From positions 1 to 21,869 of the IMG/VR virus record IMGVR_UViG_3300042448_001677: DNA of 21,869 bases; one strand, 5' to 3'. Each line of letters opens with the position of its first letter. The stretch's first letter is position 1. The notes beneath the pieces are model-generated. The model did not search any database. It saw only the letters and a list, made by a program, of their open reading frames with translations, and was not told the DNA's origin. A program made the position numbers and the translations under genes. Source of the DNA: a virus. Shown here in pieces: positions 2 to 20,815 of this stretch.

Positions 2-1852
2 GTTGCAGACTCAATAACCGATGTTTTAACTTTTGTGGCTGGTACAAACGTATCTATTACAACAAATGCCACAACTGATTCTATTACTATTAATTCAGCT
101 GGTGACTACTCCTCTGTTGACTCTATCACATATCCAGACTACATTACTTTTGATACCACCCCAGAAACTGTTCCAACTGCAACAGGAAGCATCTTTTGGG
201 ACGAAGGGGACGGTCTCCCAGCAACAGTTTTAAATGCAAACGTAACAATTGGTTTAGGGCAAGAACAAGTTGCTTTAGTTAAAAACGATACAGGTGCATC
301 TATTGCTAAGGGCAAAGTTGTTTATATTAATGGTGCTCAGGGTCAAAGACCAACTATCACTTTGTCTGATGCAGATACAGAATCAACATCCTCTAAAACA
401 TTTGGTTTAACAGCAGAGGCTATTGCAGATGAAGCGGAGGGGTTTGTAACAACCTTTGGTATATTGCGTGGGGTTAATACTCTTGGGCTAACTGAGGGTG
501 CTGCACTATGGCTATCCACAACAGCAGGTGGTTATACCACAACAGTACCAGCAGAACCTGCACACTCTGTGTTTATTGGTTATGTAGTTAAAGCTCATGC
601 AACAGCTGGCGAAATTTTTGTAAACATTCAAAACGGATACGAGCTTGATGAGTTGCATGGAGTTTCAATAAATGGTGTGTCAGAAGATCAAACTCTAAGA
701 TATGACGATGCTTCTGGGCTTTGGAAAAACACCCACCCAAATATAATTACTGCAAAAAATGCTACTGAATCAACAATAGCAGCTTTTACTCCAGTATATA
801 TTAATACTCAGGAGTTTGATCAGGATAATGTAACTTTCGTACCTGCTGATGCTGCAACATCTATGTATCTTGCAAAACTACCAGCAGATGCAATAACGGT
901 TGAATCTGTATTAAGTAATAATTCTACAAAGCTTGTTACAATGGGTGTGGTTTCTGGACTTAACTTAACTGGGTACTCTCTTGGTCAACTTTTATATATA
1001 GGTGTTGGTGGTGGTCTAACTTCAACAAGACCAACGGGAACAAATGCTATTCAGCCATTTGCAAGGGTGTTATCTACAGATAACGGAACTATATATGTTT
1101 ATGGAAATACTTTTGTTTCTTCAATAGACACTTTACCAAACCTAGCATCAGATAAGATATGGCTTGGAACATCTGGAAGACCAGTAGAAACAACTCTAAA
1201 TACCTCAGTTGTTCCAGAGGGAACCAACCTATACTTTACTGATGAAAAGGCACAAGACGCAGCAGCCTCAATGATAACTGGTGGAGCACATAATGGTGTA
1301 TCTGTAGAGTATGTAGACTCATCTGGAATATTTAACTTTACGAATACTGGCGTTACCGCACTTTATGGAACAACAAATGAAATTTCTGTATCTGGATCAA
1401 CTGGTGGAGTCACTATTGGTATTCCAGATTCCCCAGTTTTTGTTACTCCAAATATTGGAGCAGCAACAGCAACATCTCTTGTTGTTAATGGTGCAACGGT
1501 AAAAACCACAACCACAACACTTACATCAGCCTCTCCAACAACCATTGCTACCTTTTCACCAGGTGATGGGGCACTAGCAATAGAATGTCTGGTCCTAGTT
1601 TCAAGTCTTAATATTGGTGCATACACAACCTCTAAGATTTTACTTGCAGGAGACGTATCTGCATCTGATACTGTTGATATTACTGAGTATGCAATTATAG
1701 AAAAAGATTCTGGATCTGGTTTTATTGACCTAACACTCAGTGCTGATACTGGAGGAGGCAATATATTGCTAAAAGCTACAGTAACTAATTATAACGGAGT
1801 GACTGTAAAAGTTGTTTCAACTTCAATACAGGCTCCATTAGGGGCTTCATAA
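2..1852 (+). CDS. Large virion structural / tail-fibre protein, 5' end missing
   Basis: The reading frame is open from the first full codon (nt 2), so the true start lies upstream; the GTG at 35 is inside a conserved beta-rich stretch (VAGTNVSITTNATTD) and is not a credible start. The protein is Thr/Ser/Gly/Asn-rich, with no signal peptide or membrane segment. It contains two diverged copies of one about 120-residue domain (nt 269-634 and 746-1108). These are followed by the motif VPEGTNLYFTDEKAQDA (about nt 1210-1260), which is common in structural proteins of cyanophages and other marine or freshwater phages. A C-terminal beta module (about nt 1490-1840) recurs in the protein at 9720. The first domain (VKNDTG...KGKVVYING, then GxxRGVNT) matches virion proteins I recall from metagenomic Caudoviricetes. 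It probably forms part of the distal tail or baseplate fibre. The exact position in the virion cannot be told. Confidence 0.8.
   Translation, partial: VADSITDVLTFVAGTNVSITTNATTDSITINSAGDYSSVDSITYPDYITFDTTPETVPTATGSIFWDEGDGLPATVLNANVTIGLGQEQVALVKNDTGASIAKGKVVYINGAQGQRPTITLSDADTESTSSKTFGLTAEAIADEAEGFVTTFGILRGVNTLGLTEGAALWLSTTAGGYTTTVPAEPAHSVFIGYVVKAHATAGEIFVNIQNGYELDELHGVSINGVSEDQTLRYDDASGLWKNTHPNIITAKNATESTIAAFTPVYINTQEFDQDNVTFVPADAATSMYLAKLPADAITVESVLSNNSTKLVTMGVVSGLNLTGYSLGQLLYIGVGGGLTSTRPTGTNAIQPFARVLSTDNGTIYVYGNTFVSSIDTLPNLASDKIWLGTSGRPVETTLNTSVVPEGTNLYFTDEKAQDAAASMITGGAHNGVSVEYVDSSGIFNFTNTGVTALYGTTNEISVSGSTGGVTIGIPDSPVFVTPNIGAATATSLVVNGATVKTTTTTLTSASPTTIATFSPGDGALAIECLVLVSSLNIGAYTTSKILLAGDVSASDTVDITEYAIIEKDSGSGFIDLTLSADTGGGNILLKATVTNYNGVTVKVVSTSIQAPLGAS
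269..1108 (+). repeat. Internal domain duplication in the first structural protein
   Basis: Two protein-level copies at nt 269-634 and 746-1108 align by eye. Both have a K-N-x(4-5)-I opening followed by VYIN, an F/M-G-(I/V)-x(2)-G-(V/L)-N-(T/L) strand, a (E/L)G-A/Q-LxL/I turn, a Gly-Gly-x-T-x-T-x-P turn, and a closing G-(E/T)-I-(F/Y)-V-(N/Y). The DNA is no longer visibly repeated, so this is an old duplication. Confidence 0.6.
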
Positions 1853-1854
1853 TG

Positions 1855-1863
1855 TGCTATAAT
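1855..1863 (+). promoter_or_regulatory. Possible extended -10 promoter element
   Basis: TGCTATAAT is a perfect TGnTATAAT extended -10 motif just downstream of the stop of the first gene. No convincing -35 is seen 16-18 nt upstream. A start near 1870 would leave a leader of about 19 nt carrying the GAAGGGA ribosome site before the TTG at 1889. This may be fortuitous in AT-rich DNA. Confidence 0.35.
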
Positions 1864-1888
1864 TTTTCTGAAGGGACAGTGAACTTCA

Positions 1889-3616
1889 TTGGCTAGTAAA
1901 AATTTTATTGTTAAAAACGATATTGAGTTAAAGGGAAACCTCATATTTGAGGGTGCCACTAAAGATGCCAATGAAACAACCCTTACAATAACTAATCCTA
2001 CAGCAGATAGAACTATAACCTTTCCTGACAATTCTGGAACAATATCTTTAACTTCCCATAATCACACATTAGATAGCCTTTCAAATGTTGTGGTAACTGG
2101 AACGCCCACCGATGGACAGGCAATCGTTTGGGATACTGACACTTCAAAGTGGATAAATCAAACAGTTGATTCTTTTCCATCACAATCTGGAAACACTGGC
2201 AAGTTCTTACAAACAAACGGAACAAGTGTTTCCTGGGCTTTTGTAGATTTATCTGCTTATTTAACCGCAGAGTCTGACACCCTTGAAACGGTAACTGATC
2301 GTGGTGCAACATCAACAAACGCCATTACAATATCTAATACAACACAGGCAACCAGTTCAACTACAGGCTCATTAATTATATCTGGTGGTGTGGGAATTGC
2401 CAAAGATGTTTGGATTGATGGAAACCTTTATGTTGCTGGTACAACTACTACTGAAAATACCCAGACAGTAGCAACTCATGACAACTTAATCTATTTAAAT
2501 GCTGCTCAGGATAGTGTAATTACAAATGCTGTTGGAAGTGGAACTTATGTAACATATACCGCAGAAAATGATTATACTCCAGGAATGGATATTAGAGTTA
2601 CTGGAATGAACCCAGCAGGATATAACATATCTTCTGCAGATGGTCTTACTGTTTTTTCTGCTACAGCTACACAGTTTGTTGTTGCTAAAACTACCACTGG
2701 AACATTTGTTTCTGGTGGAACTGCTCATGCAAAGACAGAAGCAAATCCAGACTTAGGTTTTGCAGGTGGATATTATAATGCAGGATATGCTCACGCAGGT
2801 CTGTTTAGAGATGCATCTGACGGAGTGTTTAAGTTCTTTGAGGGATACACACCAGAGCCAGATGAGGCAGTAAATATTGACACCACCCACGCATCTTTTA
2901 CCCTAGCAGACCTTACTGCAAATGGTGCCGTGTTTACTGGGACAGTAGTTGTTGGTGGAATACAGAACAATGGTCAAGACATTACTTTAAACTCGTCACA
3001 GACTGGCACTCCATCCTTAAATGCATCTATGGTTGTAGAGCGTGGAAGTAGCAACAATGTAGCAATCCGCTGGAATGAAACTTTAAATATGTGGGAGTTT
3101 ACAAACGATGGTATTGAATATCAGGGGTTTGGATCTGGCGGTGGAGTAGAGATTTCCAATGATCCACCAACTGAAGCACTTACTGCTGGGCTAACCTGGT
3201 TTCAAATAGAAACTGGAAGACTTTATGTATATGACGGTACTTTCTGGGTTGAAGCATCTAACAACCTTAATGATGAAGCGGTAATGGATATTGTTTCAAC
3301 AATGGTTGCAAACGGAACCCATAACAATATTGAAATTACTTACAGTGACGTAAGCAATTCCCTAAGCTTTAATGTTCTTAGCGAACCAATCACAGATTTC
3401 CTGACATTAAATGAAAATATCACTGGCACTCCTACAGGCAATGCTGGTATAATAGTAAATCGTGGAGATTTAACTGATGTTTCAATTAGGTTTAATGAGA
3501 CAGAAGATCAGTGGGAATACACGAATGACGGTTCAGAGTACCAGTCAATTGGTTCAGGCGGAGGAGCAGTATCTACAATGACTGCCCTTTCAAATAGTTT
3601 TTGGTTAGGAGCATAA
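1889..3616 (+). CDS. Tail-fibre-like virion protein with duplicated receptor/shaft module
   Basis: 575 aa, TTG start chosen because it follows GAAGGGA (1870-1876) and begins the conserved N-terminus MASKNFIVKNDIELKGNLIF. An attachment-type region follows (TADRTITFPDNSGT, residues about 38-52), then GSLIISGGVGIAKDVWIDGNL (about 160-180), typical of cyanophage-like tail fibres. Two copies of a beta module with the pattern TGTP...N-A-G/S...V-x-RG...I-R-(W/F)-N-E-T...W-E-(F/Y)-T-N-D-G sit at residues 360-419 and 502-559. Between them lie a Y-x-YDG-x-FWV hairpin (about 446-454) and a segment (about 460-496) that resembles a piece of the preceding protein. The family is usually a trimeric fibre with beta-helical or beta-prism repeats. 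No chaperone domain or catalytic residues are seen. Position on the tail is inferred. Confidence 0.75.
   Translation: MASKNFIVKNDIELKGNLIFEGATKDANETTLTITNPTADRTITFPDNSGTISLTSHNHTLDSLSNVVVTGTPTDGQAIVWDTDTSKWINQTVDSFPSQSGNTGKFLQTNGTSVSWAFVDLSAYLTAESDTLETVTDRGATSTNAITISNTTQATSSTTGSLIISGGVGIAKDVWIDGNLYVAGTTTTENTQTVATHDNLIYLNAAQDSVITNAVGSGTYVTYTAENDYTPGMDIRVTGMNPAGYNISSADGLTVFSATATQFVVAKTTTGTFVSGGTAHAKTEANPDLGFAGGYYNAGYAHAGLFRDASDGVFKFFEGYTPEPDEAVNIDTTHASFTLADLTANGAVFTGTVVVGGIQNNGQDITLNSSQTGTPSLNASMVVERGSSNNVAIRWNETLNMWEFTNDGIEYQGFGSGGGVEISNDPPTEALTAGLTWFQIETGRLYVYDGTFWVEASNNLNDEAVMDIVSTMVANGTHNNIEITYSDVSNSLSFNVLSEPITDFLTLNENITGTPTGNAGIIVNRGDLTDVSIRFNETEDQWEYTNDGSEYQSIGSGGGAVSTMTALSNSFWLGA
2966..3565 (+). 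repeat. Duplicated beta module inside the second structural gene
   Basis: Protein-level copies at nt 2966-3145 and 3392-3565 are strongly alike: both carry GTP, VERG or VNRG, IRWNET or IRFNET, WEFTNDG or WEYTNDG and end in GSGGG. A weaker trace (DNLIYLNAAQ, about nt 2483-2512) may be a decayed third copy. Confidence 0.7.
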
Positions 3617-3617
3617 T

Positions 3618-4604
3618 ATGGGTTTAATGAGATTAGGACTTTCAAATCCTTCAGCAAATACAGACGTTGCTATTTATACAGCAACAGGTCCATTTCTAGC
3701 ATCCATCATTGCTACAAATAAGTCTGCTTCAGTTACTTCAAATGTTAGAATGTGGATTGTACCAAGCGGTGCAACACTAACATCACAATATGCCTATCTT
3801 GCATATGATCAAGATATTGTGCCACAAAACAGTTTAGAAACACACCGCTTTGCATTAAATCAAAATGACGTGGTATATGTAAGAGCAGATACAAATGATA
3901 TGTCATTTATGATTAATGGATTAAAGCAGGTAGATATTGCATTAGCAGCAGGTGTTACATCATATTCAAATACCCCACCATTAGATGTTATGGATGGAAT
4001 GATTTGGGTAGATAAAGATGGAAATGGAACTGCATTAAACACTCTTGCAGGTCAGATAATTCAGTCAAATTCTACTACACAAGTTCCACTTACTGTAAGA
4101 GGGATTACATCACAGACAGCAGATATATTTGACGTGCAAAATAGTGCAAGTGCAGATTTATTTTCTGTTAATAAAGATGGATACGTTAAAACTCCACTGC
4201 AACCAGCATTTAGATATCATGGATTTACTTTAAATGGCAGTGGTATGCAAGGTGGATCTGCACCATTAAATGTAAGTTCCTCGCTTTCTGTTTTTCCAGT
4301 AGGAAATGCAAGCTATACTAGGTTTACAGCACCAATTGCAGGGACATATCTTTTAGGATTTTCTCATCTAATAACTGAAAATACAGGAAGATGTGAAATA
4401 AATCTTCGAAAAAATGGATCTCAAACAATTGATGGATATGGCTCTTATTCTGGAAATGACTGGACTGGAGGATACTCTACAGCACAAAATACTTTTTTGC
4501 TTTCTTTGAGTGCAAATGATTATGTAGATGTGGTTCTTGTTTTAGGAACTCTTTTTGGGTCTCCAAGAGCAGATCAACAATTTTGGGGATATTTACTAGG
4601 ATAA
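3618..4604 (+). CDS. Tail-fibre protein with C-terminal C1q/TNF-like domain
   Basis: 328 aa. The start ATG follows TTAGGAG (3605-3611) at good spacing and gives the same N-terminus (RLGLSNPSANTD) as the paralogue at 5524 (RLAISNPGATTD). Residues 1-108 form that shared adaptor domain (ASIIATNK, then MWIVP, then LETHRF). Residues about 126-133 hold a short GMIWVDKDG hairpin. Residues 155-198 form a linker also found at 4889 and 9091. Residues about 198-328 look like a C1q/TNF jelly-roll: RFTAPIAGTYLLGFS, then INLRKNG, then FLLSLSANDYVDVVL, ending in WGYLLG. C1q-like heads in phage fibres are trimeric and bind receptors. The combination suggests a short trimeric adhesin. It is co-translated with its neighbours. 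Confidence 0.75.
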   Translation: MGLMRLGLSNPSANTDVAIYTATGPFLASIIATNKSASVTSNVRMWIVPSGATLTSQYAYLAYDQDIVPQNSLETHRFALNQNDVVYVRADTNDMSFMINGLKQVDIALAAGVTSYSNTPPLDVMDGMIWVDKDGNGTALNTLAGQIIQSNSTTQVPLTVRGITSQTADIFDVQNSASADLFSVNKDGYVKTPLQPAFRYHGFTLNGSGMQGGSAPLNVSSSLSVFPVGNASYTRFTAPIAGTYLLGFSHLITENTGRCEINLRKNGSQTIDGYGSYSGNDWTGGYSTAQNTFLLSLSANDYVDVVLVLGTLFGSPRADQQFWGYLLG

Positions 4605-4617
4605 AAAGGAGAATAAA

Positions 4618-4881
4618 ATGGAATATACGGTAACACTAACAGAAGCACAAGACAAGGCATTAGCCTATGTTGCATTTGATCCACAAGAATGGATTCAAAA
4701 TGCCGCTTCAGAACGTGCACGAATTGCGATGGAAGAAATTTTTCAGGCAGAGGTAGCAAGAATGCTTGCTGACCCGTCTGTAACTGAAATTCCTGCAGAT
4801 CGTGAAGCAGTAGTTCTTGCAGCAGATGTACTTTCTGCAGCAGAGCGTCAAGCTTCAATTTCAGCACCAGAGGCGGTATAA
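4618..4881 (+). CDS. Small acidic tail-fibre-associated protein
   Basis: 87 aa, preceded by a strong ribosome site (AAAGGAGA, 4605-4612). The sequence is predicted mostly helical and is acidic and Ala-rich (TLTEAQDKALAYVAFDPQEWIQNAASERARIAMEEIFQAEVARMLAD). It is quite unlike its beta-rich neighbours. Small proteins with a start like this (Y-x-V-x-L-T-x-A-x-x-K-A-L-x-Y-V-A...PQEW) occur next to tail-fibre genes in many aquatic phages. A role in fibre folding or assembly is a reasonable guess from context only. No catalytic motif is seen. Confidence 0.65.
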   Translation: MEYTVTLTEAQDKALAYVAFDPQEWIQNAASERARIAMEEIFQAEVARMLADPSVTEIPADREAVVLAADVLSAAERQASISAPEAV

Positions 4882-4882
4882 T
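4877..4882 (+). promoter_or_regulatory. TATAAT placed 6 nt before the ATG at 4889
   Basis: A consensus -10 hexamer overlaps the stop codon of the preceding gene, and a standard start site 7 nt past its end would fall on the A of the ATG. The best -35 at 17-nt spacing is TTCAAT (4854-4859), a poor match. The gene at 4889 has no ribosome site at usable distance. Confidence 0.3.
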
Positions 4883-4888
4883 TAAAGA

Positions 4889-5524
4889 ATGGTAGCATCA
4901 CAAGCAAGACCAGCATATATTTATGATACTACTCTAGGCGATTGGGTTCCAATGTCTGGGGTAGTTGATACTGGTCAAGCATACACTTTTACAGCTAATC
5001 AAACATTTAATGGTTTAGTTAATGCTAATAATGGTATTAATGCTGCTACCACTTTAAGTTTACAAACAGGTGGAACAACTAGACTAAGTATTGATTCTGG
5101 TGGCAGGGTAAATAAGCCATTTCAACCATCATTTTATGTACTACATACAGGTGGTGGCTTAAATGATATAAATGCAGCCCTAATACTTAATAGTCCACAG
5201 GTTAATGTTGGAAATCATTATTCTGCATCTACTGGAAGATTTACTGCACCTATTGCTGGAGCATATATGTTTTACTTTGGCACAATTAAATCGGATAATG
5301 GAAAAACTCCAGATACAGGTACATCTAGGTTTAGAATTAGAAAAAACGGAACAGCTTTTTCAACAGAATTAAGATTAAGTGAAAATGGCGGATATGGAGA
5401 AAGCTCTTCTCTGGTTGCTTCTACATTCTTGTCTGCAAATGACTATGTAGATGTTTTTATAACTGATGCTGGTGGTTGGTATGGTGGAACCTATGCTCAC
5501 TTTGGGGGGTATCTAATAGGATAA
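4889..5524 (+). CDS. Short tail-fibre protein with C1q/TNF-like head
   Basis: 211 aa. The N-terminus carries an aromatic hairpin (AYIYDTTLGDWVPMSG, residues about 9-24), then a linker (TRLSIDSGGRVNKPFQPSF, about 64-82) matching those at 3618 and 9091. The head (residues about 80-211) is C1q-like: GRFTAPIAGAYMFYFG, then RFRIRKNG, then TFLSANDYVDVFI, ending in FGGYLIG. No Shine-Dalgarno sequence precedes the ATG; translation is by coupling or from a leaderless message (see 4877). The end of the gene and the start of the next share a 26-nt segment with the 9091/9720 junction. It is probably a trimeric receptor-binding protein. Confidence 0.72.
   Translation: MVASQARPAYIYDTTLGDWVPMSGVVDTGQAYTFTANQTFNGLVNANNGINAATTLSLQTGGTTRLSIDSGGRVNKPFQPSFYVLHTGGGLNDINAALILNSPQVNVGNHYSASTGRFTAPIAGAYMFYFGTIKSDNGKTPDTGTSRFRIRKNGTAFSTELRLSENGGYGESSSLVASTFLSANDYVDVFITDAGGWYGGTYAHFGGYLIG
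5225..5247 (+). repeat. 23-nt exact direct repeat, copy 1 (with 9421-9443)
   Basis: A 23-nt stretch beginning GCATCTACTGGAAGATT is identical at 9421-9443. In both it encodes the A-S-T-G-R-F-T-A strand of the C1q-like heads, in genes about 4.2 kb apart. Confidence 0.85.
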
Positions 5525-5528
5525 TGGC
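5503..5528 (+). repeat. 26-nt gene-junction repeat, copy 1 (with 9699-9724)
   Basis: TGGGGGGTAT[C/T]TAATAGG followed by ATAATGGC spans the last codons of a C1q-like gene, its stop, and the overlapping ATG of the next gene. The copy at 9699-9724 differs at one base and occupies the same kind of junction. It includes the AGGA ribosome site used by the downstream gene. Confidence 0.85.
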
Positions 5529-6777
5529 AATTTCAAGATTAGCAATTTCAAATCCAGGTGCAACAACAGATACCCTTCTTCATACCGCCACTCGTAGTTC
5601 ACTCGCATCTATCATTGCAACTAATAAAGCAAATACTGTGGCGGAAGTTAGAGTTTGGATAGTTCCACAAGGTCAAGATGCTACCCCTGCAAATTGGTCA
5701 TACATTGCATATGATGCAGATATTACTGCAACTAACTCTCTTGAAACATTCCGCTTTCCAGTAATGTCTGGAGATAAGATTTATGTAAGATCAACAACAG
5801 CAGATGTATCATTTCAAATTATGGGTATCTATGAAACAGGTGCAGATACATATGTTTATGCACAAGCAACTGAACCTACCGCTCCACAAGTTGGAGATAT
5901 CTGGGTAGATACAGCAAGTGATGTTCCAAGCATTGATAATACAACTGTATATCGTTGGTCAAAAACTGCGGTAGGTGGAGAAACTTCTCTATCTGGAGCT
6001 GGAAATGATTTATCTATTCTTAAATATATTGCAGGGTATGAGCAGGTGTATTTAAACGGGGTACTCCTAGCAAAAAATCTAGACTACTTTGCGACCAATG
6101 GAACATCTATTACATCTTTAACCGCACTTTCTGCAGGGGATATTGTAGAAGTAATTTCCCCATACGCTATTGAATTAACAGATGTATATACTAAGTCTGC
6201 TTCTGATGCCAAATACGATACTAAAGTATCTAATGGATTAAATTTAGTTATTCCTACTGGAGTTGTAGTTGGCTCTGGAACTGGAACTATTTCTGCAAAT
6301 GGTCAAATATCATTTAGCGGTTCCAGTACAGTTGATGTAATTAATTGTTTTTCATCCACATATGATACCTACAAAATTTTAATATCTGCACATGCTGCTA
6401 CTGGAGGACCTGCACTAGCAATGAACTTTAGGGACGCTACCACTCTTGTAAGCACTGGATACTATGGTGGCGTTTGGAGTACAAGGTTTGATGGCGTAAC
6501 TGCTGCAACTGCTATAAATAATGCAAGCTCTATAACAGTTGCTACAACTATGGGAAGCATACCTGGAAATAGGTGTGTTGTTAGTTTAGATTTATATAGA
6601 ACAGCTATTGATGGTGTTGTTACTGGTACTGGATTTGGCGGTTCTAATTCCGCAGCACTTACTGTTTCTGCTAACAGAACTGGTATGACAAACTTTACTG
6701 GACTTACAATTAGCCCCTCTTCTTCTACTATGACGGGTACAATAAGAATTTATGGATATAATAATGGTGGTGCATAA
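5524..6777 (+). CDS. Multidomain tail-fibre protein
   Basis: 417 aa from the ATG at 5524, which overlaps the previous stop by 1 nt (TAATG). An in-frame extension to 5476 would run into the previous gene and is rejected because MAISRLAISNPGATTD aligns with the start of the 3618 paralogue. Residues 1-108 form the shared adaptor domain. A GDIWVDTAS/VYRWSKT hairpin follows (about 122-150). Next comes a segment of about 60 residues with YEQVYLNGVLLAKNLDYFA, a common phage tail-fibre insert. A TDVYTKSASDAKY segment likely forms a trimeric coiled linker. The C-terminal beta domain (about residues 255-417: ISFSGSSTVDVINCFSSTYD, later TGTIRIYGYNNGG) resembles a recurrent phage tail-tip domain. Function: virion adhesin, by family and context. 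Confidence 0.75.
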   Translation: MAISRLAISNPGATTDTLLHTATRSSLASIIATNKANTVAEVRVWIVPQGQDATPANWSYIAYDADITATNSLETFRFPVMSGDKIYVRSTTADVSFQIMGIYETGADTYVYAQATEPTAPQVGDIWVDTASDVPSIDNTTVYRWSKTAVGGETSLSGAGNDLSILKYIAGYEQVYLNGVLLAKNLDYFATNGTSITSLTALSAGDIVEVISPYAIELTDVYTKSASDAKYDTKVSNGLNLVIPTGVVVGSGTGTISANGQISFSGSSTVDVINCFSSTYDTYKILISAHAATGGPALAMNFRDATTLVSTGYYGGVWSTRFDGVTAATAINNASSITVATTMGSIPGNRCVVSLDLYRTAIDGVVTGTGFGGSNSAALTVSANRTGMTNFTGLTISPSSSTMTGTIRIYGYNNGGA

Positions 6778-7305
6778 ATGAGTAGAGCTAGAGATAATGC
6801 AAGTGGAGCAATGCCTGGTAATACAATTCAAGTTGTACAAAAAGTTTTTAAGGATGTTTGGTCTTCAGCAACAGGGGCAACTACTTTTTCTCAAATTACA
6901 GGATTTGAACAGGCTATAACTCCAAAATATGCTAGTAGTAAAATTTTAGTGTCATATCATATGCATCTTTCTACTGGATATTGGGAAATCCAAGGAAGAA
7001 TGACAAGAAATGGTTCAGTTTTAACAGATTCTCTTGGTCTTACTCGTGGATCACGAATACCTGTATCTTTTGCAGTTAATAATTATGAAGGTGGAACATC
7101 TGGAAACTCGTGGAATGATACTTTCTTTCAATTTTTAGACTCTCCAAATACAACTTCAACCTTAACTTATGGTATGCAGCTTAATGCATACTCAACTTAT
7201 ACCGTAGGTATAAATAGAAATGTTTATGCAGACACCGATGCTGCTGACTACTATGGACAGCCGATATCAACAATTACTATAATGGAGATTGCACACAATG
7301 GGTAA
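6778..7305 (+). CDS. Short tail protein with beta-sandwich tip domain
   Basis: 175 aa. The ATG directly follows the previous stop codon. The body is a single beta-rich domain (IQVVQKVFKD...ITGFEQAITPKYASSKILVSYHMHLS...FFQFLDSPNTTSTLTYGMQL...INRNVY...ISTITIMEIA). It is the same family as the gene at 8534 and as many phage tail-tip proteins. The short N-terminus (MSRARDNASGAMPGN) is the only linker. No signal peptide or metal-binding His cluster is present. It is probably a small trimeric adhesin or fibre tip, co-expressed in the fibre array. Confidence 0.68.
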   Translation: MSRARDNASGAMPGNTIQVVQKVFKDVWSSATGATTFSQITGFEQAITPKYASSKILVSYHMHLSTGYWEIQGRMTRNGSVLTDSLGLTRGSRIPVSFAVNNYEGGTSGNSWNDTFFQFLDSPNTTSTLTYGMQLNAYSTYTVGINRNVYADTDAADYYGQPISTITIMEIAHNG

Positions 7306-8356
7306 GAGAACATATACATATGATGGAACGGATTGGGTAGGATTAACTTCAACTACCGCCGATTTATCTAATTATGCCAACATGACTACTACCCCAATTA
7401 GTGGTTTTAGAAATGTAATTATTAATGGTGACTTTAGAATTAATCAACGTGGTCTAGGATCTGCTGGAACAGTTTATACTTCAGGGTATGGATTTGATAG
7501 ATGGTATGTAGAAGCAAATAATGGAACATTGACTCACTCTGCACAAACATTTACTCCTGGAAATGCTATAGCTGGATATGAGCCAATAAGTTTTGCAAGA
7601 TTAACTACTAGTGGTCAAACTTTGTCTGGTGCTTATGCAGCATTAATTCAAAAAATTGAAGATGTTAGATCACTTGCAGGGCAAACAATTACTATATCTT
7701 TTTGGGCTAAGGCTGCATCTGGTACTCCAAAAATTGCAATTGAAATGGATCAAAACTTTGGATCAGGTGGCTCAACCCGTGTAACAACATTGGCAGGTCA
7801 AGTAACTCTGTCTACTTTATGGAATAGATATTCGGTAACAGTTCAGGTTCCTTCTATTTCTGGAAAAACAATTGGATCAAGCTCGTTTATTGCCTTAGAT
7901 TTATTTACATCTGCAGGTGCTGATTTTAATGCTCGTAGCGGATCACTTGGTATTCAAAATAATACCTTTGATTTTTGGGGTGTTCAAGTTGAGGCAGGAA
8001 CTACTCCCACACCGCTTGAGCAACGTCCAATAGGACTTGAAACAACTCTTTGCCATAGATACTTTCAAAGATTTATTGACCCTGCTGGATTTGGAGTTAA
8101 CGCTGGAGGAAATGCAACAAGAGTATTAATGCCCTTATACACAAGAATGAGGGCAATCCCAACTACCGTTATCTCTGGAACTTTTAATTTTTGGAATGGA
8201 GGAGGCACTGGAACTTCAACTGCTCTACAAGCTGCATATAATTCTATATCGCATGGTCAACTAGATTTTCTTGGTGGAGCAGGAACTACAGGTCAGCCAA
8301 ATGCACTATATACAAATGGTGGATCTAATTATGCAGATTTTAGTGCGGAGTTATAA
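7298..8356 (+). CDS. Receptor-binding tail protein with carbohydrate-binding-like domain
   Basis: 352 aa. The ATG at 7298 is preferred to the TTG at 7289 because GGAG (7284-7287) is correctly spaced for it. The gene overlaps the previous one by 8 nt. The N-terminus has a hairpin YTYDGTDWVG (residues 6-15), then a conserved entry motif RNVIINGDFRINQRG. A beta-sandwich follows: YGFDRWYV, QKIEDVRSLAGQTITISFWAKA, WNRYSVTVQVP, FDFWGVQVEAG. It closes with the boundary LEQRPIGLETTLCHRYFQRF and a further C-terminal beta segment. This layout is common in putative receptor-binding proteins of aquatic phages and resembles carbohydrate-binding modules. Glycan binding is inferred. Confidence 0.75.
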   Translation: MGKRTYTYDGTDWVGLTSTTADLSNYANMTTTPISGFRNVIINGDFRINQRGLGSAGTVYTSGYGFDRWYVEANNGTLTHSAQTFTPGNAIAGYEPISFARLTTSGQTLSGAYAALIQKIEDVRSLAGQTITISFWAKAASGTPKIAIEMDQNFGSGGSTRVTTLAGQVTLSTLWNRYSVTVQVPSISGKTIGSSSFIALDLFTSAGADFNARSGSLGIQNNTFDFWGVQVEAGTTPTPLEQRPIGLETTLCHRYFQRFIDPAGFGVNAGGNATRVLMPLYTRMRAIPTTVISGTFNFWNGGGTGTSTALQAAYNSISHGQLDFLGGAGTTGQPNALYTNGGSNYADFSAEL

Positions 8357-8526
8357 TGTATAAAAAATGTATTGACTCAATAACTGGAGAAGAAGCAAAA
8401 TGTGTTAATCGTTTATCAGATAACGCAATAATACCATTTGACGAATCAAATATGGACTATCAAGAATATTTAAAGTGGCTAGAAGAAGGAAATATTCCTG
8501 AGCCTTCTGATCTAGAGGAGGTATAA
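8356..8526 (+). CDS. Tiny tail-fibre partner protein (56 aa)
   Basis: The ATG at 8356 overlaps the previous stop (TAATG) and the frame runs 56 codons to the TAA at 8524-8526. The sequence ends DYQEYLKWLEEGNIPEPSD. I recall this pattern (D-Y-x-x-Y-x-x-W-L-x-x-G-N-x-P-x-P-x-D) from small phage proteins encoded beside, or at the ends of, tail-fibre genes. It is acidic, with Cys5 and Cys16. Its own 3' end supplies the ribosome site of the next gene. Conserved pattern, position and coupling make it a real gene; an assembly or accessory role is inferred. Confidence 0.75.
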   Translation: MYKKCIDSITGEEAKCVNRLSDNAIIPFDESNMDYQEYLKWLEEGNIPEPSDLEEV

Positions 8527-8527
8527 T
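8515..8527 (+). promoter_or_regulatory. Consensus ribosome site GAGGAGGT fused to a TATAAT hexamer
   Basis: GAGGAGGT (8515-8522) is a near-perfect Shine-Dalgarno sequence 11 nt from the ATG at 8534. TATAAT (8522-8527) overlaps its last base and ends 6 nt before the ATG, so a transcript starting 7 nt downstream would begin at the A of the ATG. No -35 is recognisable. The ribosome site is the safer reading. Confidence 0.5.
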
Positions 8528-8533
8528 AGTAAT

Positions 8534-9091
8534 ATGCCTGGATATTTAGTACCTACAAATACTGTTGATCAATCTACCACCGTTGGTGGATATAATATAT
8601 TTCAAGCAGTTAATAGTGGCTCTATATTACAAGTAAAAAATATTACAAAGACTGATGCACAGGTTATAAGTGGTGCATTGTGGAATGACATTTCTGGTTT
8701 ATCTTTATCAATTACCCCCACATATTCTAGTAGCAACATATTAATAATTGCAGATGTAAAGGCAGCTGGAGATACTGATGCAAGCGTTGTAAGATCTAGG
8801 GTACTTAGAGATTCAACGGCAATTGGAATTGGAGATGCCTCAAGTTCTAGACCAAGGTCCTTGTCAGAATTTTATATGGCATCAGGTGCTGGACCATTCT
8901 ATGTAGCACAGCTTGGTGGAAATATTTGGGACTCGCCCAACACAACATCTGCAATAACCTATAAAGTTCAATTGGGTGGGGACAGCAATGGCTCAACTGT
9001 ATTTATTAATAGAACTGAAGGCGATAGAGATACTGCTTATTACGATGGAAGATTTATATCTTCAATAACTTTAATGGAGATTGCAGGATAA
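8534..9091 (+). CDS. Short tail protein, paralogue of the 6778 gene
   Basis: 185 aa. The N-terminus MPGYLVPTNTVDQSTTVGGYN is a short adaptor; the next gene also starts MPGY. The body (residues about 30-185) is the same beta domain as at 6778: ILQVKNITKTDAQ, LSLSITPTYSSSNILI, RVLRDSTAIGIGDASSSRPRS, IWDSPNTTSAITYKVQL, VFINRTEGDRD, FISSITLMEIAG. The two share the pattern D-S-P-N-T-T-S, x-I-N-R and S-(T/S)-I-T-(I/L)-M-E-I-A. This domain is frequent in phage tail-tip proteins of unknown ligand. It probably forms a trimeric spike or fibre tip. Confidence 0.7.
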   Translation: MPGYLVPTNTVDQSTTVGGYNIFQAVNSGSILQVKNITKTDAQVISGALWNDISGLSLSITPTYSSSNILIIADVKAAGDTDASVVRSRVLRDSTAIGIGDASSSRPRSLSEFYMASGAGPFYVAQLGGNIWDSPNTTSAITYKVQLGGDSNGSTVFINRTEGDRDTAYYDGRFISSITLMEIAG

Positions 9092-9720
9092 TGCCAGGAT
9101 ATGTAAAGCCCCCAGTAAATGGACGTATAAACGGCACTATGGAAATGATACCGTCTCTTTCTACCCAAACCCCCCTAACAATTAAAGGGGCTGTATCTCA
9201 AACAGCAAACTTATTAAACATTCAGGATAGTAGTGGAACCGTAATAGGATCTATTGATTCATCTGGAAGACATGTAAGAAACAACCCCTCATTTTTAATT
9301 CGTAGTTCGGCTGGAACGGCATATAATGGTGGAGGCACATGGCTAGACATATCAAGGCTTTTAACATCTGGTGGGGTTTCTACGGCAATTGTAGATCATA
9401 ACATTGGTTCAAACTGGAATGCATCTACTGGAAGATTTACTGCCCCAGTTTCTGGAAGATATTTGTTTTATGCAGGTGGATGGACCAACTATAATGGTGC
9501 AGGAAATAGGTATGCAATTTCTTTTACTATCAATGATGGCTCTCTAACATATATTTCTGGAGCAAATACCTCTATAGCGGATTCACCTGTTGTATTTTCT
9601 CCAGTAATTTACAACCTTGCTGCAGGTGACTATATGATTTGCAAGATGTTTTCTTCCGTTGCAATGAATCTTGGAACAGGAAGTCATGCATTTTACTATG
9701 GGGGGTATTTAATAGGATAA
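9091..9720 (+). CDS. Tail-fibre protein with C1q/TNF-like head
   Basis: 209 aa, 1-nt overlap with the previous stop; AGGA lies just upstream. The N-terminus MPGYVKPPVNGRINGTMEM matches the first residues of the 8534 protein. The linker (TPLTIKGAVSQTANLLNIQD...IGSIDSSGRHVRNNPSF, residues about 28-70) is clearly related to the 3618 protein (LTVRGITSQTADIFDVQN). The C1q-like head (about 70-209) includes GRFTAPVSGRYLFYAGG and NLAAGDYMICKMF, ending in YYGGYLIG. DNA repeats shared with the 4889 gene (5225/9421 and 5503/9699) show recombination or recent duplication of the module. It is probably a receptor-binding head. Confidence 0.73.
   Translation: MPGYVKPPVNGRINGTMEMIPSLSTQTPLTIKGAVSQTANLLNIQDSSGTVIGSIDSSGRHVRNNPSFLIRSSAGTAYNGGGTWLDISRLLTSGGVSTAIVDHNIGSNWNASTGRFTAPVSGRYLFYAGGWTNYNGAGNRYAISFTINDGSLTYISGANTSIADSPVVFSPVIYNLAAGDYMICKMFSSVAMNLGTGSHAFYYGGYLIG
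9421..9443 (+). repeat. 23-nt exact direct repeat, copy 2 (with 5225-5247)
   Basis: Identical to 5225-5247 and lying at the equivalent place in a C1q-like head. Confidence 0.85.
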
Positions 9721-9724
9721 TGGC
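9699..9724 (+). repeat. 26-nt gene-junction repeat, copy 2 (with 5503-5528)
   Basis: One mismatch to copy 1. It spans the C-terminal GGYLIG codons, the stop and the overlapping start of the next gene. The downstream genes differ at the two sites (adaptor 'ISRLAISNP' at 5524, 'TIFPLDP' at 9720), so the repeat marks a border at which different genes have been joined. Confidence 0.85.
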
Positions 9725-10175
9725 TACTATATTTCCTTTAGACCCAGAACTTAATGATACATATACATCAGGCAGTGTTACTTGGATTTGGGACGGTGAA
9801 GCATGGGTAAGATCATTTGTTGATGATACCGTCAATACTGATGTTCTTGTAGATATTGTTTCACAAACTGTATCTATTACTGCAAATACCGCCACAACAA
9901 TTAGCTCCTTTGCTACAACAAAGTATAGAACTGCTGAGTTTATTGTTCAGGTAACACAGGGAACAGACTACTATTCCTCAAAGATATTTTTAATACATGA
10001 TGGCACCAATACAAAAATTACTCAGTATGGTATCCTTGAAAGCACAGTTAATGCAATTCCAGTAACAATATCATCTACAATATCTGGAGGAAATGTCCTT
10101 TTAAGAGCAACAGTAACAGATGCTTCCACATCTAATTGTTCTGTTAAAATAATCAGAACTGCGGTAACTGTTTAA
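9720..10175 (+). CDS. Small tail protein with MATIFPLDP adaptor
   Basis: 151 aa from the ATG at 9720 (1-nt overlap, AGGA upstream). A longer in-frame version from 9639 lies inside the previous gene and is rejected because MATIFPLDP is also the start of the gene at 15937. Residues 1-32 form that adaptor with an aromatic hairpin (WIWDGEAWVR). Residues about 45-151 (TVSITANTATTISSF, YYSSKIFLIHDGTNTKITQYGIL, GGNVLLRATVTD, VKIIRTAV) match the C-terminal module of the first gene in the window (SKILLAGDVSASDTVDITEYAII, GGGNILLKATVTN, VKVVST). It is therefore a two-module protein made from parts found elsewhere in the array. Structural role inferred. Confidence 0.7.
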   Translation: MATIFPLDPELNDTYTSGSVTWIWDGEAWVRSFVDDTVNTDVLVDIVSQTVSITANTATTISSFATTKYRTAEFIVQVTQGTDYYSSKIFLIHDGTNTKITQYGILESTVNAIPVTISSTISGGNVLLRATVTDASTSNCSVKIIRTAVTV

Positions 10176-10846
10176 TGATTAATCTAAAGGTAAAATCTGG
10201 TTTAGAGTCCAAAGAATATGGACAAAATATATTGCCACAAGTTGGAACAATTTTAATATATGCTGGAACTACAGCACCTGCTGGATGGCTTTTATGTAAT
10301 GGTTCAACCTTTGATCAAACCTTATATCCACAACTATATGCTCTTTTAGGTAATTCAAATACCCTCCCAGACTTAAGAGAAAGATATTTGATTGGTAAAG
10401 GCAGTGATAGTCTTACTTTAAATACAAATACTGGTTCAAGTAATCATGAGCATTCATATTCATATGCTGGTAATAATAGCAATAACACCGCAATTTCTCA
10501 TGCTCATAATGTTGGTACATATTTTAATGCAACCTATACCGCTCATGCACACTACTCATATTTAAATGTTGGCATTGATTTTTTTGGAAACAATGCTGCT
10601 AACTATAGAGCAGGAAGCTCTCAGAATATGACAACTCAAAACCATGAGCACTATACTGGTGGATATGCATCGGGATCAAACTATGCTGGATATAATCATG
10701 CACATAATGGAGCCATAACTAGAAATGATACGAATGCACCTGCACACGCTCACACTGTAGCATCAAGTGCAGCTGGGTATATTTCCTCAAACACCGCAAT
10801 TATACCTCCAACAATCTATTTAAACTTTATAGTTAAGGCAGGATAA
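10175..10846 (+). CDS. Tail-collar protein with HxH needle region
   Basis: 223 aa, 1-nt overlap with the previous stop. A phage tail-collar domain (Pfam Collar type) covers residues about 20-75: GTILIYAGTTAPAGWLLCNG, YPQLYALLG, LPDLRERYLIGKG. It is followed by a Gly/Asn/His-rich region with six His-x-His motifs (HEH at 91-93, then HAH, HAH, HEH, HAH, HAH) and the closing strand PPTIYLNFIVKAG. In T4, HxH motifs of trimeric gp37 and gp12 bind metal ions along a needle-like tip. The same layout suggests a metal-stabilised trimeric receptor-binding needle. It is the first of three consecutive collar paralogues. Confidence 0.82.
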   Translation: MINLKVKSGLESKEYGQNILPQVGTILIYAGTTAPAGWLLCNGSTFDQTLYPQLYALLGNSNTLPDLRERYLIGKGSDSLTLNTNTGSSNHEHSYSYAGNNSNNTAISHAHNVGTYFNATYTAHAHYSYLNVGIDFFGNNAANYRAGSSQNMTTQNHEHYTGGYASGSNYAGYNHAHNGAITRNDTNAPAHAHTVASSAAGYISSNTAIIPPTIYLNFIVKAG

Positions 10847-10847
10847 A

Positions 10848-11522
10848 ATGAGCAACTTTAACGTAAAAGATGGAGTACAAATAGCAGACAGCAAAAATCC
10901 ATTTTTCTTGCCAGGTGCAATTGTATCCTCAATGGTTGCAGCAACCCCTGATGGTTGGTTAAACTGTAATGGTCAAGAAGTTTTAATAACTCAGTATCAA
11001 GACCTATATACTTCAATTGGAACAACATATAACTTAGGCACTGAAACTGTAGGTTACTTTAGATTGCCAAATATGTCTTCAAGATATCTTATTCAGAAAA
11101 CATCTGGTAGTGGTATTTATGGAAACTCTAGCACACATAGCCACTCAACTTCTGCAAACTATGATTTAGCAGCAAAAACCGTAGATCATGGTCATCCAAC
11201 AAACAATTATGTAAATAACAATAACATTTACCATGCCCCAGGTGGTGGTGGATCAGGTGGTGGTACTGACAATAACCCACTAAATGCAAACAAAACTGGT
11301 TTTTCTTCTGGTGGTGCCTCTGGTGCAGGTCATTTCCACTCAGTAAACTGTGGTGGGAACCAAGATGGACCTTATGGAAATGATCATGGTCATGGAATGT
11401 CTACAGGTATTGGAAACTCTTCACAAAGTCATACGCATTCTGGGTCATTTGCAGCAGTAAACTCCAATAGTTCATCCATAAACCCACAAAGTTTTGTAAT
11501 AAATTATTTTATAAAGTCTTAA
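10848..11522 (+). CDS. Tail-collar protein with HxH needle region (second paralogue)
   Basis: 224 aa. AGGCAGGA lies 5 nt before the ATG. The N-terminus (MSNFNVKDGVQIAD) resembles that of the preceding gene (INLKVKSGLES). The collar domain covers residues about 21-88: GAIVSSMVAATPDGWLNCNG, YQDLYTSIGTTYNLG, FRLPNMSSRYLIQK. The distal part is Gly/Asn/Ser-rich with five HxH motifs (HSH, HGH, HFH, HGH, HTH) and a glycine run (GGGGSGGG) that could be a flexible loop. It closes with SFVINYFIKS. It is probably a trimeric metal-binding tip like its neighbours, with different loops. Confidence 0.82.
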   Translation: MSNFNVKDGVQIADSKNPFFLPGAIVSSMVAATPDGWLNCNGQEVLITQYQDLYTSIGTTYNLGTETVGYFRLPNMSSRYLIQKTSGSGIYGNSSTHSHSTSANYDLAAKTVDHGHPTNNYVNNNNIYHAPGGGGSGGGTDNNPLNANKTGFSSGGASGAGHFHSVNCGGNQDGPYGNDHGHGMSTGIGNSSQSHTHSGSFAAVNSNSSSINPQSFVINYFIKS

Positions 11523-11528
11523 GTAGGA

Positions 11529-11534
11529 TATAAT
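11529..11534 (+). promoter_or_regulatory. TATAAT placed 6 nt before the ATG at 11541
   Basis: In the 18-nt gap before the third collar gene lies a consensus -10 hexamer, 7 nt from hexamer end to the A of the ATG. The only ribosome-site-like bases (AGGA, 11525-11528) are 12 nt from the start, longer than usual. No -35 is obvious; the region at 11503-11512 is A/T only. Confidence 0.35.
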
Positions 11535-11540
11535 ATAAAC

Positions 11541-12278
11541 ATGACTAGCGTAGACTTAGAGGTAATATCTGGATATGATATTGACACAAACACCAATAGC
11601 TTTATTCCAGTTGGCTCAATTGTTTCCTATGGTCATAACTCTTTTTTAACAAACATTGATGAAATTGGAATGGTTCCCTGTGATGGAAGATCACTGAATA
11701 CATTTACATACAGCAATCTTCACAAAATAATTGGAAATATTTATGGTGGTACAGCATATTCTGCAGGAACAACAGACCAACCTTCTGCGGTTACAACCTT
11801 TAATGTTCCAACCTTAAACAATTCTGTTAAGTTTTTAGCAATGAAAAATGCTCAAGCGTTAAATGCATCTGGGGGTTCTGCATCGCACACCCACACAAAT
11901 TCTATAAATGCTACTACAACTGCTGGAACCTCAACCTTTGATCATGGTCACTACTGGTCAGCTTATGCACAGGCACAGGGAGAATATCACGCACACTATA
12001 TGGGTGGGTTTTATTTTGGAAACTCAAATACTCCAGCAAATCAACCAGTTGGAAAAGTTGATGGTAATCAGTCTGCTGCAGGGCGATACCATGCTCACAG
12101 TGGATATGTTCCTGCAATTGGATATGGAGCGTACACTGAACACGATCATTATGCAGATGGCAATATGTATACTGCAAGTGGAACTAATCATGATCATACG
12201 GTATCTGTATCAACAACTACTGCTGTTACAACGGCAGTACCGAACTACGCAACAGCAATGTTTTATATAAAAATATAA
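11541..12278 (+). CDS. Tail-collar protein with HxH needle region (third paralogue)
   Basis: 245 aa. The collar domain covers residues about 22-103: FIPVGSIVSYGHN, MVPCDGRSLNTFTYSNLHKIIGNIYGG, TFNVPTLNNSVKFLAMKN. It is followed by a His/Tyr/Ala-rich distal part with six HxH motifs (HTH, HGH, HAH, HAH, HDH, HDH) and the end strand PNYATAMFYIKI. The collar motif is more diverged than in the two preceding genes (GMVPCDGR instead of GWLLCNG). The start codon follows an unusual TATAAT-containing gap. It probably forms a trimeric needle tip on the same tail structure or an alternative to the other collar proteins. Confidence 0.8.
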   Translation: MTSVDLEVISGYDIDTNTNSFIPVGSIVSYGHNSFLTNIDEIGMVPCDGRSLNTFTYSNLHKIIGNIYGGTAYSAGTTDQPSAVTTFNVPTLNNSVKFLAMKNAQALNASGGSASHTHTNSINATTTAGTSTFDHGHYWSAYAQAQGEYHAHYMGGFYFGNSNTPANQPVGKVDGNQSAAGRYHAHSGYVPAIGYGAYTEHDHYADGNMYTASGTNHDHTVSVSTTTAVTTAVPNYATAMFYIKI

Positions 12279-12293
12279 GGATAGGAGGGTAAA

Positions 12294-12653
12294 ATGACAT
12301 ACAAGAAAATATTAGTGGGAGACAAGTTAATCTTTGGAGTATCTGATACCGAGTTTATTGACATAGATGGACACGAAAAGTTTAACTATTTTTGCAGTCT
12401 TTCTGAGTCTCATAAAGAAGATCTAATTCAAGACATAAAAGATGGTCTTATGGAGGCGGTAGAAGAAGAGCTATCATGCTTAGACACTGGATCACAAGAC
12501 CACTTGACAAAAACTATTGCATATGTTAGACTTATGCAAACAGTATCTTCATCTATTTACATAAATAATGAAACTTTAGCTAAGGAGCAAGAACAAGCAT
12601 TGCTACAGCAAAGTTTAATAGATCAAGCAGAAAATTGGAGTTTTAGTGAGTAA
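12294..12653 (+). CDS. Small acidic protein of unknown function
   Basis: 119 aa with a very strong ribosome site (TAGGAGGGT, 12282-12290). The N-terminal third (ILVGDKLIFGVSDTEFIDID) looks beta-stranded. The rest looks helical and acidic (ESHKEDLIQDIKDGLMEAVEEELSCLD, and a Gln/Glu-rich C-terminus ETLAKEQEQALLQQSLIDQAE). No known motif was recognised. It begins the cassette between the collar genes and overlaps the following gene by 8 nt, so the two are probably translated together. It could be an assembly partner for the neighbouring virion proteins; nothing in the sequence proves it. Confidence 0.65.
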   Translation: MTYKKILVGDKLIFGVSDTEFIDIDGHEKFNYFCSLSESHKEDLIQDIKDGLMEAVEEELSCLDTGSQDHLTKTIAYVRLMQTVSSSIYINNETLAKEQEQALLQQSLIDQAENWSFSE

Positions 12654-15936: not shown

Positions 15937-17070
15937 ATGGCTACTATATTTCCACTTGATCCAGATATTGGAGACGTGTATGAAGACTATGTATGGAATG
16001 GTGTTTCCTGGGACTTAGTTGGAGTAGATCTTACAACAAACTATCTAGAAGAGTCTACTGCCGTTTCTCTTTACGCAACAAAGGTTTATGCAGACAATGC
16101 TGTAAGTACTGCAATTACTAATCTAATAGACTCATCTCCAACCACACTTAATACTTTAAATGAGTTAGCAGCAGCTTTAAATGATGATGCAAACTTTTCT
16201 GCAACAGTAACCGATCTAATTGCTCAAAAAATAACAAACGTTCCTGGAATGATTGTTCAATATGCAGGGGCTTCTGCTCCCTCTGGCTGGTTGATTTGTG
16301 ACGGTTCTGCTATTAGCAGGGTAACTTATCCTGTTTTATTTTCTGCTATCTCAACAACCTATGGTGTTGGTGATGGCTCAACGACCTTTAACTTACCAAA
16401 CTTAAAAGGTAGAATACCTGTTGGATTAGACTCTGCTCAGACAGAGTTTGACGCACTCAATGAAACTGGTGGTGCAAAAACTCACCAACATGCTTCTGCA
16501 AATACAGGTGATGCTGGTAATCATAGTCATACAACGACAGATCATTCACACAATACGGCAGATCATAGTCACTATGCAGACCATAGTCACTATTCAGACC
16601 ATAGTCACTACGCAGATCATAGTCACAACGCCGCACATGATCACAACATCACTGGTGGTTCTCACAATCATGGTATCTCTGGTTCCGTATCTGCAAATAA
16701 TACCGCAGGAACCAAGGCTTCTTCTGGAAATACTTCCAATACCCTACAGTCTATAGGTCACGCCCATGCTGACAACTTTGCTGTGTCTAACAGCCCAGAT
16801 CATGCACACAATGTTGTAGCATTTAATGGTGGAACTTCTAATGCAAATGGTGCTGGTATTACAACTGGAAACTCAAACTACGGAAATACATCCAATGCTA
16901 ATGGTTTTGGCATTACAACTGGTGGAGCTAATGCTGGAAACGGTACAGGCGGTGCAAGTGATGGAAATACCACTAGCAATCAAGCAGCACACTCTCATAG
17001 TGTATCTGCATCAGACACCCTATCAAACCTACAACCTTATATAGTAGTAAACTATATAATTAAAACATAA
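15937..17070 (+). CDS. Tail-collar protein with very long HxH needle
   Basis: 377 aa. It has the MATIFPLDP adaptor of the 9720 gene (1-32, with hairpin YVWNGVSWDLV), then a shaft segment typical of phage fibres (AVSTAITNLIDSSPTTLNTLNELAAAL, about 55-81). The collar domain covers about 102-165 (GMIVQYAGASAPSGWLICDGSAI, VLFSAISTTYGVGDG, FNLPNLKGRIPVGL). The distal region holds twelve HxH motifs (183-185 through 352-354), including a periodic DHSHYA block at 202-236 and two 18-residue repeats at 300-335. It closes with LQPYIVVNYIIKT. By analogy with T4 gp37/gp12 this should be a trimeric, metal-ion-studded receptor-binding needle. No good ribosome site precedes the ATG. It is separated from the other collar genes by the 12294-15926 cassette. 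Confidence 0.85.
   Translation: MATIFPLDPDIGDVYEDYVWNGVSWDLVGVDLTTNYLEESTAVSLYATKVYADNAVSTAITNLIDSSPTTLNTLNELAAALNDDANFSATVTDLIAQKITNVPGMIVQYAGASAPSGWLICDGSAISRVTYPVLFSAISTTYGVGDGSTTFNLPNLKGRIPVGLDSAQTEFDALNETGGAKTHQHASANTGDAGNHSHTTTDHSHNTADHSHYADHSHYSDHSHYADHSHNAAHDHNITGGSHNHGISGSVSANNTAGTKASSGNTSNTLQSIGHAHADNFAVSNSPDHAHNVVAFNGGTSNANGAGITTGNSNYGNTSNANGFGITTGGANAGNGTGGASDGNTTSNQAAHSHSVSASDTLSNLQPYIVVNYIIKT
16540..16644 (+). repeat. In-frame DHSHYA periodic repeat
   Basis: Codes for residues 202-236. One 7-residue unit (DHSHNTA) is followed by four 6-residue units (DHSHYA, DHSHYS, DHSHYA, DHSHNA) and a terminal AHDH. The DNA units of 18 nt (GATCATAGTCACTATGCA type) are nearly identical, so copy number can change by slippage without shifting frame. 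Confidence 0.9.
16834..16941 (+). repeat. Tandem 54-nt (18-residue) repeat in the collar protein
   Basis: Two adjacent units, 16834-16887 and 16888-16941. They encode TSNANGAGITTGNSNYGN and TSNANGFGITTGGANAGN. The first ten codons are near-identical in protein; DNA differs mostly at third positions, so the duplication is not brand new. Confidence 0.8.
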
Positions 17071-20231: not shown

Positions 20232-20249
20232 TCTGATAAACTTATTAGA
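20232..20249. promoter_or_regulatory. Imperfect palindrome overlapping a start region (possible operator)
   Basis: TCTGATAA-AC-TTATTAGA forms two 8-nt arms with one mismatched position (G·T in a hairpin). It ends on the A of the ATG at 20249. A poor -10-like TAAACT (20237-20242) lies inside it, 7 nt from the ATG, with TTGGAT (20214-20219) 17 nt further upstream. No ribosome site precedes this ATG. It could be an operator over a weak leaderless promoter, or chance in A/T-rich DNA. Confidence 0.3.
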
Positions 20250-20774: not shown

Positions 20775-20815
20775 TAGACATATAAAAATGTTTAACAAGG
20801 AGTACAACTGAAAAA

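Follow-up and report, generated by a model that had tools for sequence, protein, structure and literature searches.

Conserved N-termini combined with exchanged C-termini, arrays of several receptor-binding protein (RBP) genes, and variable C1q genes are all known from phages (PMC10253068, PMC11414711, PMC3909814, PMC7468147). CBA120 and the Ackermannviridae (TSP1-4), RaK2 and phiK64-1 (Alcyoneusvirus) carry RBP genes in tandem whose N-terminal domains are conserved and whose C-terminal parts can be exchanged (PMC10253068, PMC11414711). In the distal tail-fibre locus of T-even phages, specificity is swapped by recombination between conserved motifs (Tetart 1998, via PMC7468147). Metaviromic islands hold C1q, lectin-like and carbohydrate-binding hypervariable host-recognition genes, with recombination inferred around conserved parts (PMC3909814, PMC7468147). 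Fibre chaperones are encoded beside their cognate fibres, and exchange of a tail fibre with its adjoining chaperone gene has been described (PMC10579305). Among freshwater actinophages, the 'Ca. Nanopelagicales' phages E7 and F5 encode WhiB and have a variable island at the fibre genes (PMC10202952), and the lake phage DSL-LC01 also carries WhiB (PMC10611076).

Freshwater actinobacteria are very abundant, and host recognition by their phages is poorly known. We analyzed a 21.9-kb IMG/VR fragment of an uncultured tailed phage (the window). Its fibre locus has tandem RBP genes like CBA120 and RaK2, variation between conserved parts like the T-even locus and the metaviromic islands, and small genes adjoining fibre genes as in the chaperone systems. 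We think it fairly likely that this region is a slot array of RBPs, in which slot-specific adaptors carry exchanged lectin-like heads and certain heads are accompanied by linked companion genes.

Results

Layout of the fibre array

Thirteen fibre/adhesin-type ORFs and two small ORFs form one co-oriented run (Table 1). The tandem arrangement of virion-type genes with near-zero spacing claimed in the initial annotation was borne out: intergenic distances are -5 to +36 nt, and the single larger gap (177 nt) contains the 56-aa ORF comp56. The two small ORFs had been missed; they are companion genes rather than adhesins. The array had also been described as standing in place of one long fibre. Long fibre-type proteins are present as well, namely g02 and g01 (727 aa in the near-identical contig L030, where it is complete), and precede the short genes. 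The short genes are thus additional to long fibres. The start codon of g08 is uncertain; the ORF list places it at TTG 7289.

Table 1. Positions of the array genes and of other features in the window.
Feature	Position	Strand	Description	Remarks
g01	2..1852	+	long fibre-type protein	cut by left edge of window; C-terminal module shared with g11
g02	1889..3616	+	long tail-fibre-type protein, 575 aa, TTG start	phrog_9729, E 4e-10
g03	3618..4604	+	LSNP adaptor (aa 1-139), neck, C1q head (aa ~177-328)	
g04	4618..4881	+	87-aa companion of C1q heads, unnamed family; candidate C1q-fibre assembly chaperone	
g05	4889..5524	+	short adaptor (aa 1-74), C1q head	
g06	5524..6777	+	LSNP adaptor and linker (aa 1-242), beta-rich head (aa 243-417)	
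g07	6778..7305	+	MSRARD N-terminus, TNF-like head homologous to g09	
g08	7301..8356	+	MGKRTY adaptor, carbohydrate-binding-module-like head	CBM_4_9, phrog_4492
comp56	8356..8526	+	56-aa companion of g08-type heads; candidate fibre-assembly factor	
g09	8534..9091	+	MPGY adaptor peptide, TNF-like lectin-fold head	AlphaFold2; best match PLTL, Z 14.7
g10	9091..9720	+	MPGY adaptor and neck (aa 1-60), C1q head	
g11	9720..10175	+	MATIFPLDP adaptor, head	
g12	10175..10846	+	tail-collar-domain fibre	
g13	10848..11522	+	tail-collar-domain fibre	
g14	11541..12278	+	tail-collar-domain fibre	
g25	15937..17070	+	separate collar fibre, MATIFPLDP adaptor, His-rich repeats	
WhiB	17622-17963		WhiB-family regulator	

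Family scans detected C1q in g03, g05 and g10, CBM_4_9 in g08, and tail-collar domains in g12-g14 and g25. PHROG tail-fibre profiles matched most of the remaining members. These profiles are often much longer and were covered at their C-terminal end only, so that heads found elsewhere on long fibres sit here on short proteins. The adaptors range from a peptide of 4-8 residues to the ~130-aa LSNP domain plus linker.

Modules shared within the window and between phages

The module reuse noted in the initial annotation was largely reproduced by BLASTP. The LSNP adaptors of g03 and g06 are 46% identical over 136 aa (E 3e-28), the C1q heads of g03, g05 and g10 match each other at E 2e-9 to 2e-12, and the tip domains of g07 and g09 are 36% identical (E 7e-13). 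The module common to g01 (approximately nt 1511-1828) and g11 showed 35% identity over 109 aa (E 8e-7), and the MATIFPLDP adaptor of g11 and g25 was matched at E 1e-4 (DNA 86% over 29 nt). For the MPGY pair (g09 and g10), the shared start of four N-terminal residues stands, and there was no significant BLASTP match. A chance match is unlikely, since nine different array ORFs among the loci retrieved start with MPGY, and PGY followed 0 of 4687 internal Met residues.

In other phages one head occurs on differing adaptors, and one adaptor with differing heads, which is direct module exchange. Proteins of 938-1718 aa (L016, L012, L013) end in a C-terminal segment with 54-59% identity to the g11 head, and a g11-type head (46% identical) sits on an LSNP adaptor in L056. 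One TNF-like head (67% identical) was found on an MTAARV and on an MPGY adaptor. The MATIFPG adaptor (84%) bears a g08-type head in L014, but in L054 its head is of the g06 type, and a single MALDFP adaptor in L059, L060 and L063 is joined to C1q, TNF-like, collar-like and g06-type heads.

Sister phages keep the slots and change the heads

Contigs with the same slots are few, which limits the statistics: L030 (98.8% identical to the window over 7890 nt) and L003/L004 (99.7-99.96%) represent the same virus, and sister phages are represented by L031, with its near-duplicate L073, and by L032. Slot order and slot adaptors in L032 and L031 are the same as in the window. The genes had been called shuffled; they stay in fixed slots, and it is the heads that are exchanged.

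Boundaries were located by two-rate change-point analysis of protein identity between sisters. Across sisters, identity dropped abruptly at the adaptor/head boundary, from 87-100% before it to 15-39% after. For L032 the changes were 97 to 15% at aa 139 in slot 3 (s03), 91 to 39% at aa 74 in s05, 94 to 33% at aa 242 in s06, 100% (8 aa) to 23% in s07, 88 to 22% at aa 256 in s08, 100 to 26% at aa 21 in s09, and 88 to 27% at aa 60 in s10; s11 was ~67% identical along its whole length with no drop. L031 agreed for s06, s09 and s10 (87-95% before, 24-39% after), and its s08 was ~97% identical throughout. Where g03 has a C1q head in the window, L032 has a non-C1q head; in slot 7, L032 has a g06-type head in place of the window's TNF-like one; and the g06 head differs in both sisters. 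Beyond the array, identity to L032 was lower (s16 49%, s17 47%, collar genes lower still). These genes are far less alike, so the history of the flanks differs from that of the adaptor block.

A sister comparison had been proposed as a check on the idea of a combinatorial adaptor-head architecture built by recombination. Instead of identical genes in identical order with no module exchange, it displayed the exchange directly, with heads replaced in both L032 and L031.

Synonymous sites in adaptors and heads

Third-position identity was scored at codons with unchanged amino acid; counts were small (25-59 codons per head). It was 0.75-0.92 in adaptors and 0.39-0.59 in the replaced segments of 7 of 9 comparisons. 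The other two, the L031 s06 head and the C-terminal part of L032 s08, gave 0.70-0.72, and the flanking genes s16 and s17 gave 0.57-0.59. Selection at the protein level does not saturate synonymous sites. Since these sites are close in the adaptors and near saturation in most heads, the heads appear to differ in ancestry from their adaptors and to have been mostly replaced rather than mutated. The two segments at 0.70-0.72 are unsaturated and may reflect recent or faster divergence.

Predicted folds of the heads

Judged by sequence and modelling, the heads are lectin-like, with three C1q domains, two predicted TNF-like folds and one carbohydrate-binding-module-like domain. Pfam C1q (PF00386) scores were 24.4 bits for g03, 35.9 for g05 and 23.7 for g10, all at or above the gathering cut-off of 23.7, and g05 retrieved C1q-family PDB chains by sequence. 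AlphaFold2 predicts g09 (mean pLDDT 77.7; head mostly >80, loops weaker) as a TNF/C1q-type jelly roll. The best matches of this model were the TNF-like bacterial lectins PLTL (9ib7; rmsd 1.9 over 126 residues) and the N-domain of BC2L-C (2wq4, Z 14.2), together with the C-terminal domain of Pgp3, followed by C1q/TNF domains at Z ~10-11. The predicted g09 head thus resembles PLTL and the BC2L-C N-domain in fold (Z 14-14.7), at a sequence identity of only 13-18%. A lectin is the natural reading of the g09-type head as a predicted function.

The model of g06, which includes the LSNP adaptor, was too poor (pLDDT 54.5) to name that adaptor, and its head matches were at background (Z ≤ 7.6). The adaptors gave no Pfam hit that would point to T4 gp10-like branching (XD) domains. 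In profile comparison, the TNF-like head alignment matched neither g05 nor the heads of L032 slot 3 and L031 slot 7, leaving these heads unclassified or TNF relatives only at the level of fold. Pfam and PHROG scans of the heads yielded C1q, CBM, collar and unnamed fibre domains, and no depolymerase or other enzymatic head.

Companion genes of specific heads

The g04 family was initially found in 18 IMG/VR contigs, and a profile search extended it to 367 IMG/VR loci. We examined the neighbourhoods of the best 80 of these 367 loci, set aside the loci behind the hypothesis, and retained 48 distinct new cases. In 45 of the 48 (among the best 80 of 367), a C1q head, recognised by a profile built from the discovery loci, ends the gene directly upstream of g04; for comparison, 25 of the 230 remaining same-strand ORFs with a length of 150 aa or more had a C1q head. 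Because the sample is enriched for g04 by construction, it tests C1q given g04 and not the reverse. By sequence, the non-matches (L093, L102, L128) look like incomplete loci or a wrong ORF; they were kept as non-matches in the count. Bacterial and archaeal genomes contained g04 at one locus only. Of 8 comp56 ORFs first found, 7 (about five distinct phages) follow a g08-type head. The same placement was seen in 13 of 14 other phages, whose hosts range from cyanobacteria to Acidovorax and Xanthomonas.

Pfam, PHROGs and NCBIfam gave no named function for g04 or comp56 and no match to a Tfa/gp38-type chaperone family. In PHROGs, comp56 hits families of unknown function (phrog_20370, E 5e-14), and single public records label a comp56 relative tail fiber assembly-like. 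We propose a helper role for both because their gene position is like that of known fibre chaperones (PMC10579305); by this analogy g04 and comp56 are candidate head-specific assembly factors. The C1q heads of g05 and g10 have no adjacent g04, and L032 retains g04 in slot 3 with the upstream C1q head lost, so any g04 helper must act in trans. Small genes also follow g06-type heads (L032 7004-7234, L060 10269-10457, L062 10858-11067), possibly a third companion family.

Source, likely host and flanking genes

No close nucleotide match to the whole window was found among 50,697 phage records. The large terminase encoded upstream in the L030 contig is 63-66% identical to Streptomyces phage terminases; Gilson, the one top match looked up, belongs to the Stanwilliamsviridae. 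WhiB, regarded as an actinophage marker (PMC10202952), occurs in the window and, among its relatives, only in a single distant one. The only phage record matching the LSNP adaptor was the lake actinophage assembly DSL-LC01, with two matches (PMC10611076). On the strength of the terminase, WhiB and this adaptor, the hosts are probably freshwater actinobacteria. The Gp23 major capsid protein occurs only in two distant relatives sharing g16, which gives little ground for a T4-like placement of the lineage.

The tandem paralogues g16/g17 (12646-14075; phrog_7084, unknown function) have ~30% identical relatives in haloarchaeal tailed viruses and cyanophages, an unusually wide host spread. Within g25, 18-nt tandem repeats (16513-16650) encode a His-rich (ADHSHYADHSHY) stretch that may bind metal, as such stretches do in other fibres. 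The fibre genes are followed by glycosyltransferase-like genes and one for an FkbM-type methyltransferase (14395-15926 and 18395-20223), which may serve glycan or virion modification. Two adjacent genes at 20249-21868 have signal-peptide-like N-termini and possibly encode secreted or envelope proteins; a long Pro-Ser-rich repeat is present in the second.

Discussion

The slot array would work as follows. Each slot-specific N-terminal adaptor probably docks at a particular site on the virion or on a neighbouring fibre, and each C-terminal lectin-like head (C1q, TNF-like or CBM-like) probably binds a host surface glycan. Adaptors and slot order would stay fixed because they are fitted to the virion, and heads would be replaced through recombination. 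Conserved DNA flanks every head on both sides, in its own adaptor and at the start of the next gene, so the likely route is homologous recombination between phages infecting one cell. The co-oriented genes probably form one transcription unit from which all heads are produced together, to be displayed as a multivalent set; promoter-like sites were no commoner than in shuffled sequence, and terminator-like sites were about as frequent. Companions g04 and comp56 probably aid folding or trimerisation of C1q and g08-type heads, respectively.

Could rapid point mutation, driven by diversifying selection, have altered the heads in place, with recombination unneeded? Slots 5, 6, 9 and 10 retain their head class in the sisters at 24-39% identity, and the two segments with less eroded third positions would fit such a course. 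This is nevertheless very unlikely, given that unchanged codons in most heads are far more eroded than those in the adaptors of the same genes and that slots 3 and 7 switch head class outright. Programmed variation, in which invertible DNA, a site-specific recombinase or a diversity-generating retroelement selects the adhesin, would account for several related modules in one locus, and the initial annotation had allowed for adhesins being swapped. Fifteen related records, which may be fragments, contained no match to a reverse transcriptase (RVT_1), a serine recombinase (Resolvase) or a tyrosine integrase (Phage_integrase). The window has no close inverted repeats, the sole one being 26 nt at 81% with arms 15.8 kb apart, and all array genes are intact and co-oriented. 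With no reverse transcriptase, invertase or integrase found in these 15, possibly fragmentary, records, we regard programmed switching as very improbable, and simultaneous display fits better.

Where the short proteins sit on the virion is a separate matter. They might be capsid (head) fibres or decorations for loose glycan adhesion rather than tail RBPs: g08 resembles the NCBIfam GTA head-spike-fibre domain (E 4e-8, just below the cut-off), so that some array members could decorate the capsid, and the array in the near-identical contig comes after the large terminase and small genes, not after tail genes. Collar-domain fibre genes adjoin the array, however, and most members match PHROG profiles annotated 'tail fiber', which makes an array of capsid fibres unlikely. 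For the companions, a role as structural partners (stalk or cap) or as passengers of the heads, not chaperones, seems the less probable reading but deserves some weight. In its favour, g04 and comp56 have no family match or fold to go by, and g04 persists in L032 where the upstream C1q head is lost. Against it, each follows immediately on one head type in diverse phages, which is where known fibre chaperones are encoded (PMC10579305). The slot-array reading would be unaffected either way.

The array reveals where lectin heads swap while the socket stays, and makes host-range evolution testable slot by slot. g04 offers a sequence marker by which C1q-headed fibres can be traced in hundreds of uncultured viruses, and the companion genes are a testable candidate for a new fibre-chaperone family. 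More speculatively, host recognition in freshwater phages might be plug-and-play, with fixed sockets, short adaptors, and interchangeable trimeric lectin heads that spread together with dedicated folding factors (the g04 family for C1q heads, comp56 for CBM-like heads) forming an unrecognised class of head-specific chaperones.

In the limited open literature available, we found no earlier description of so long and ordered an array of short lectin-like slots whose heads are replaced at domain boundaries, nor of the two head-linked companion families; both may be new. g04 and comp56 differ from described chaperones in having no family match in Pfam, PHROGs or NCBIfam. The fibre loci of E7/F5 and DSL-LC01 are described or annotated as collagen-like, with no C1q/TNF slot array described there (PMC10202952, PMC10611076). 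The metaviromic islands, as far as these reports present them, are single variable genes or islands, in contrast to the ordered slots, domain-level boundaries and companions of the window (PMC3909814, PMC7468147). Phages of the CBA120/RaK2 kind have large enzymes, depolymerases or tailspikes, as heads, together with T4 gp10-like branching domains (PMC10253068, PMC11414711), whereas the proteins here are 150-420 aa long, with small lectin-like heads on adaptors down to a few residues. The T-even and chaperone-exchange systems involve one or two fibres (PMC7468147, PMC10579305), compared with approximately nine slots in the window.
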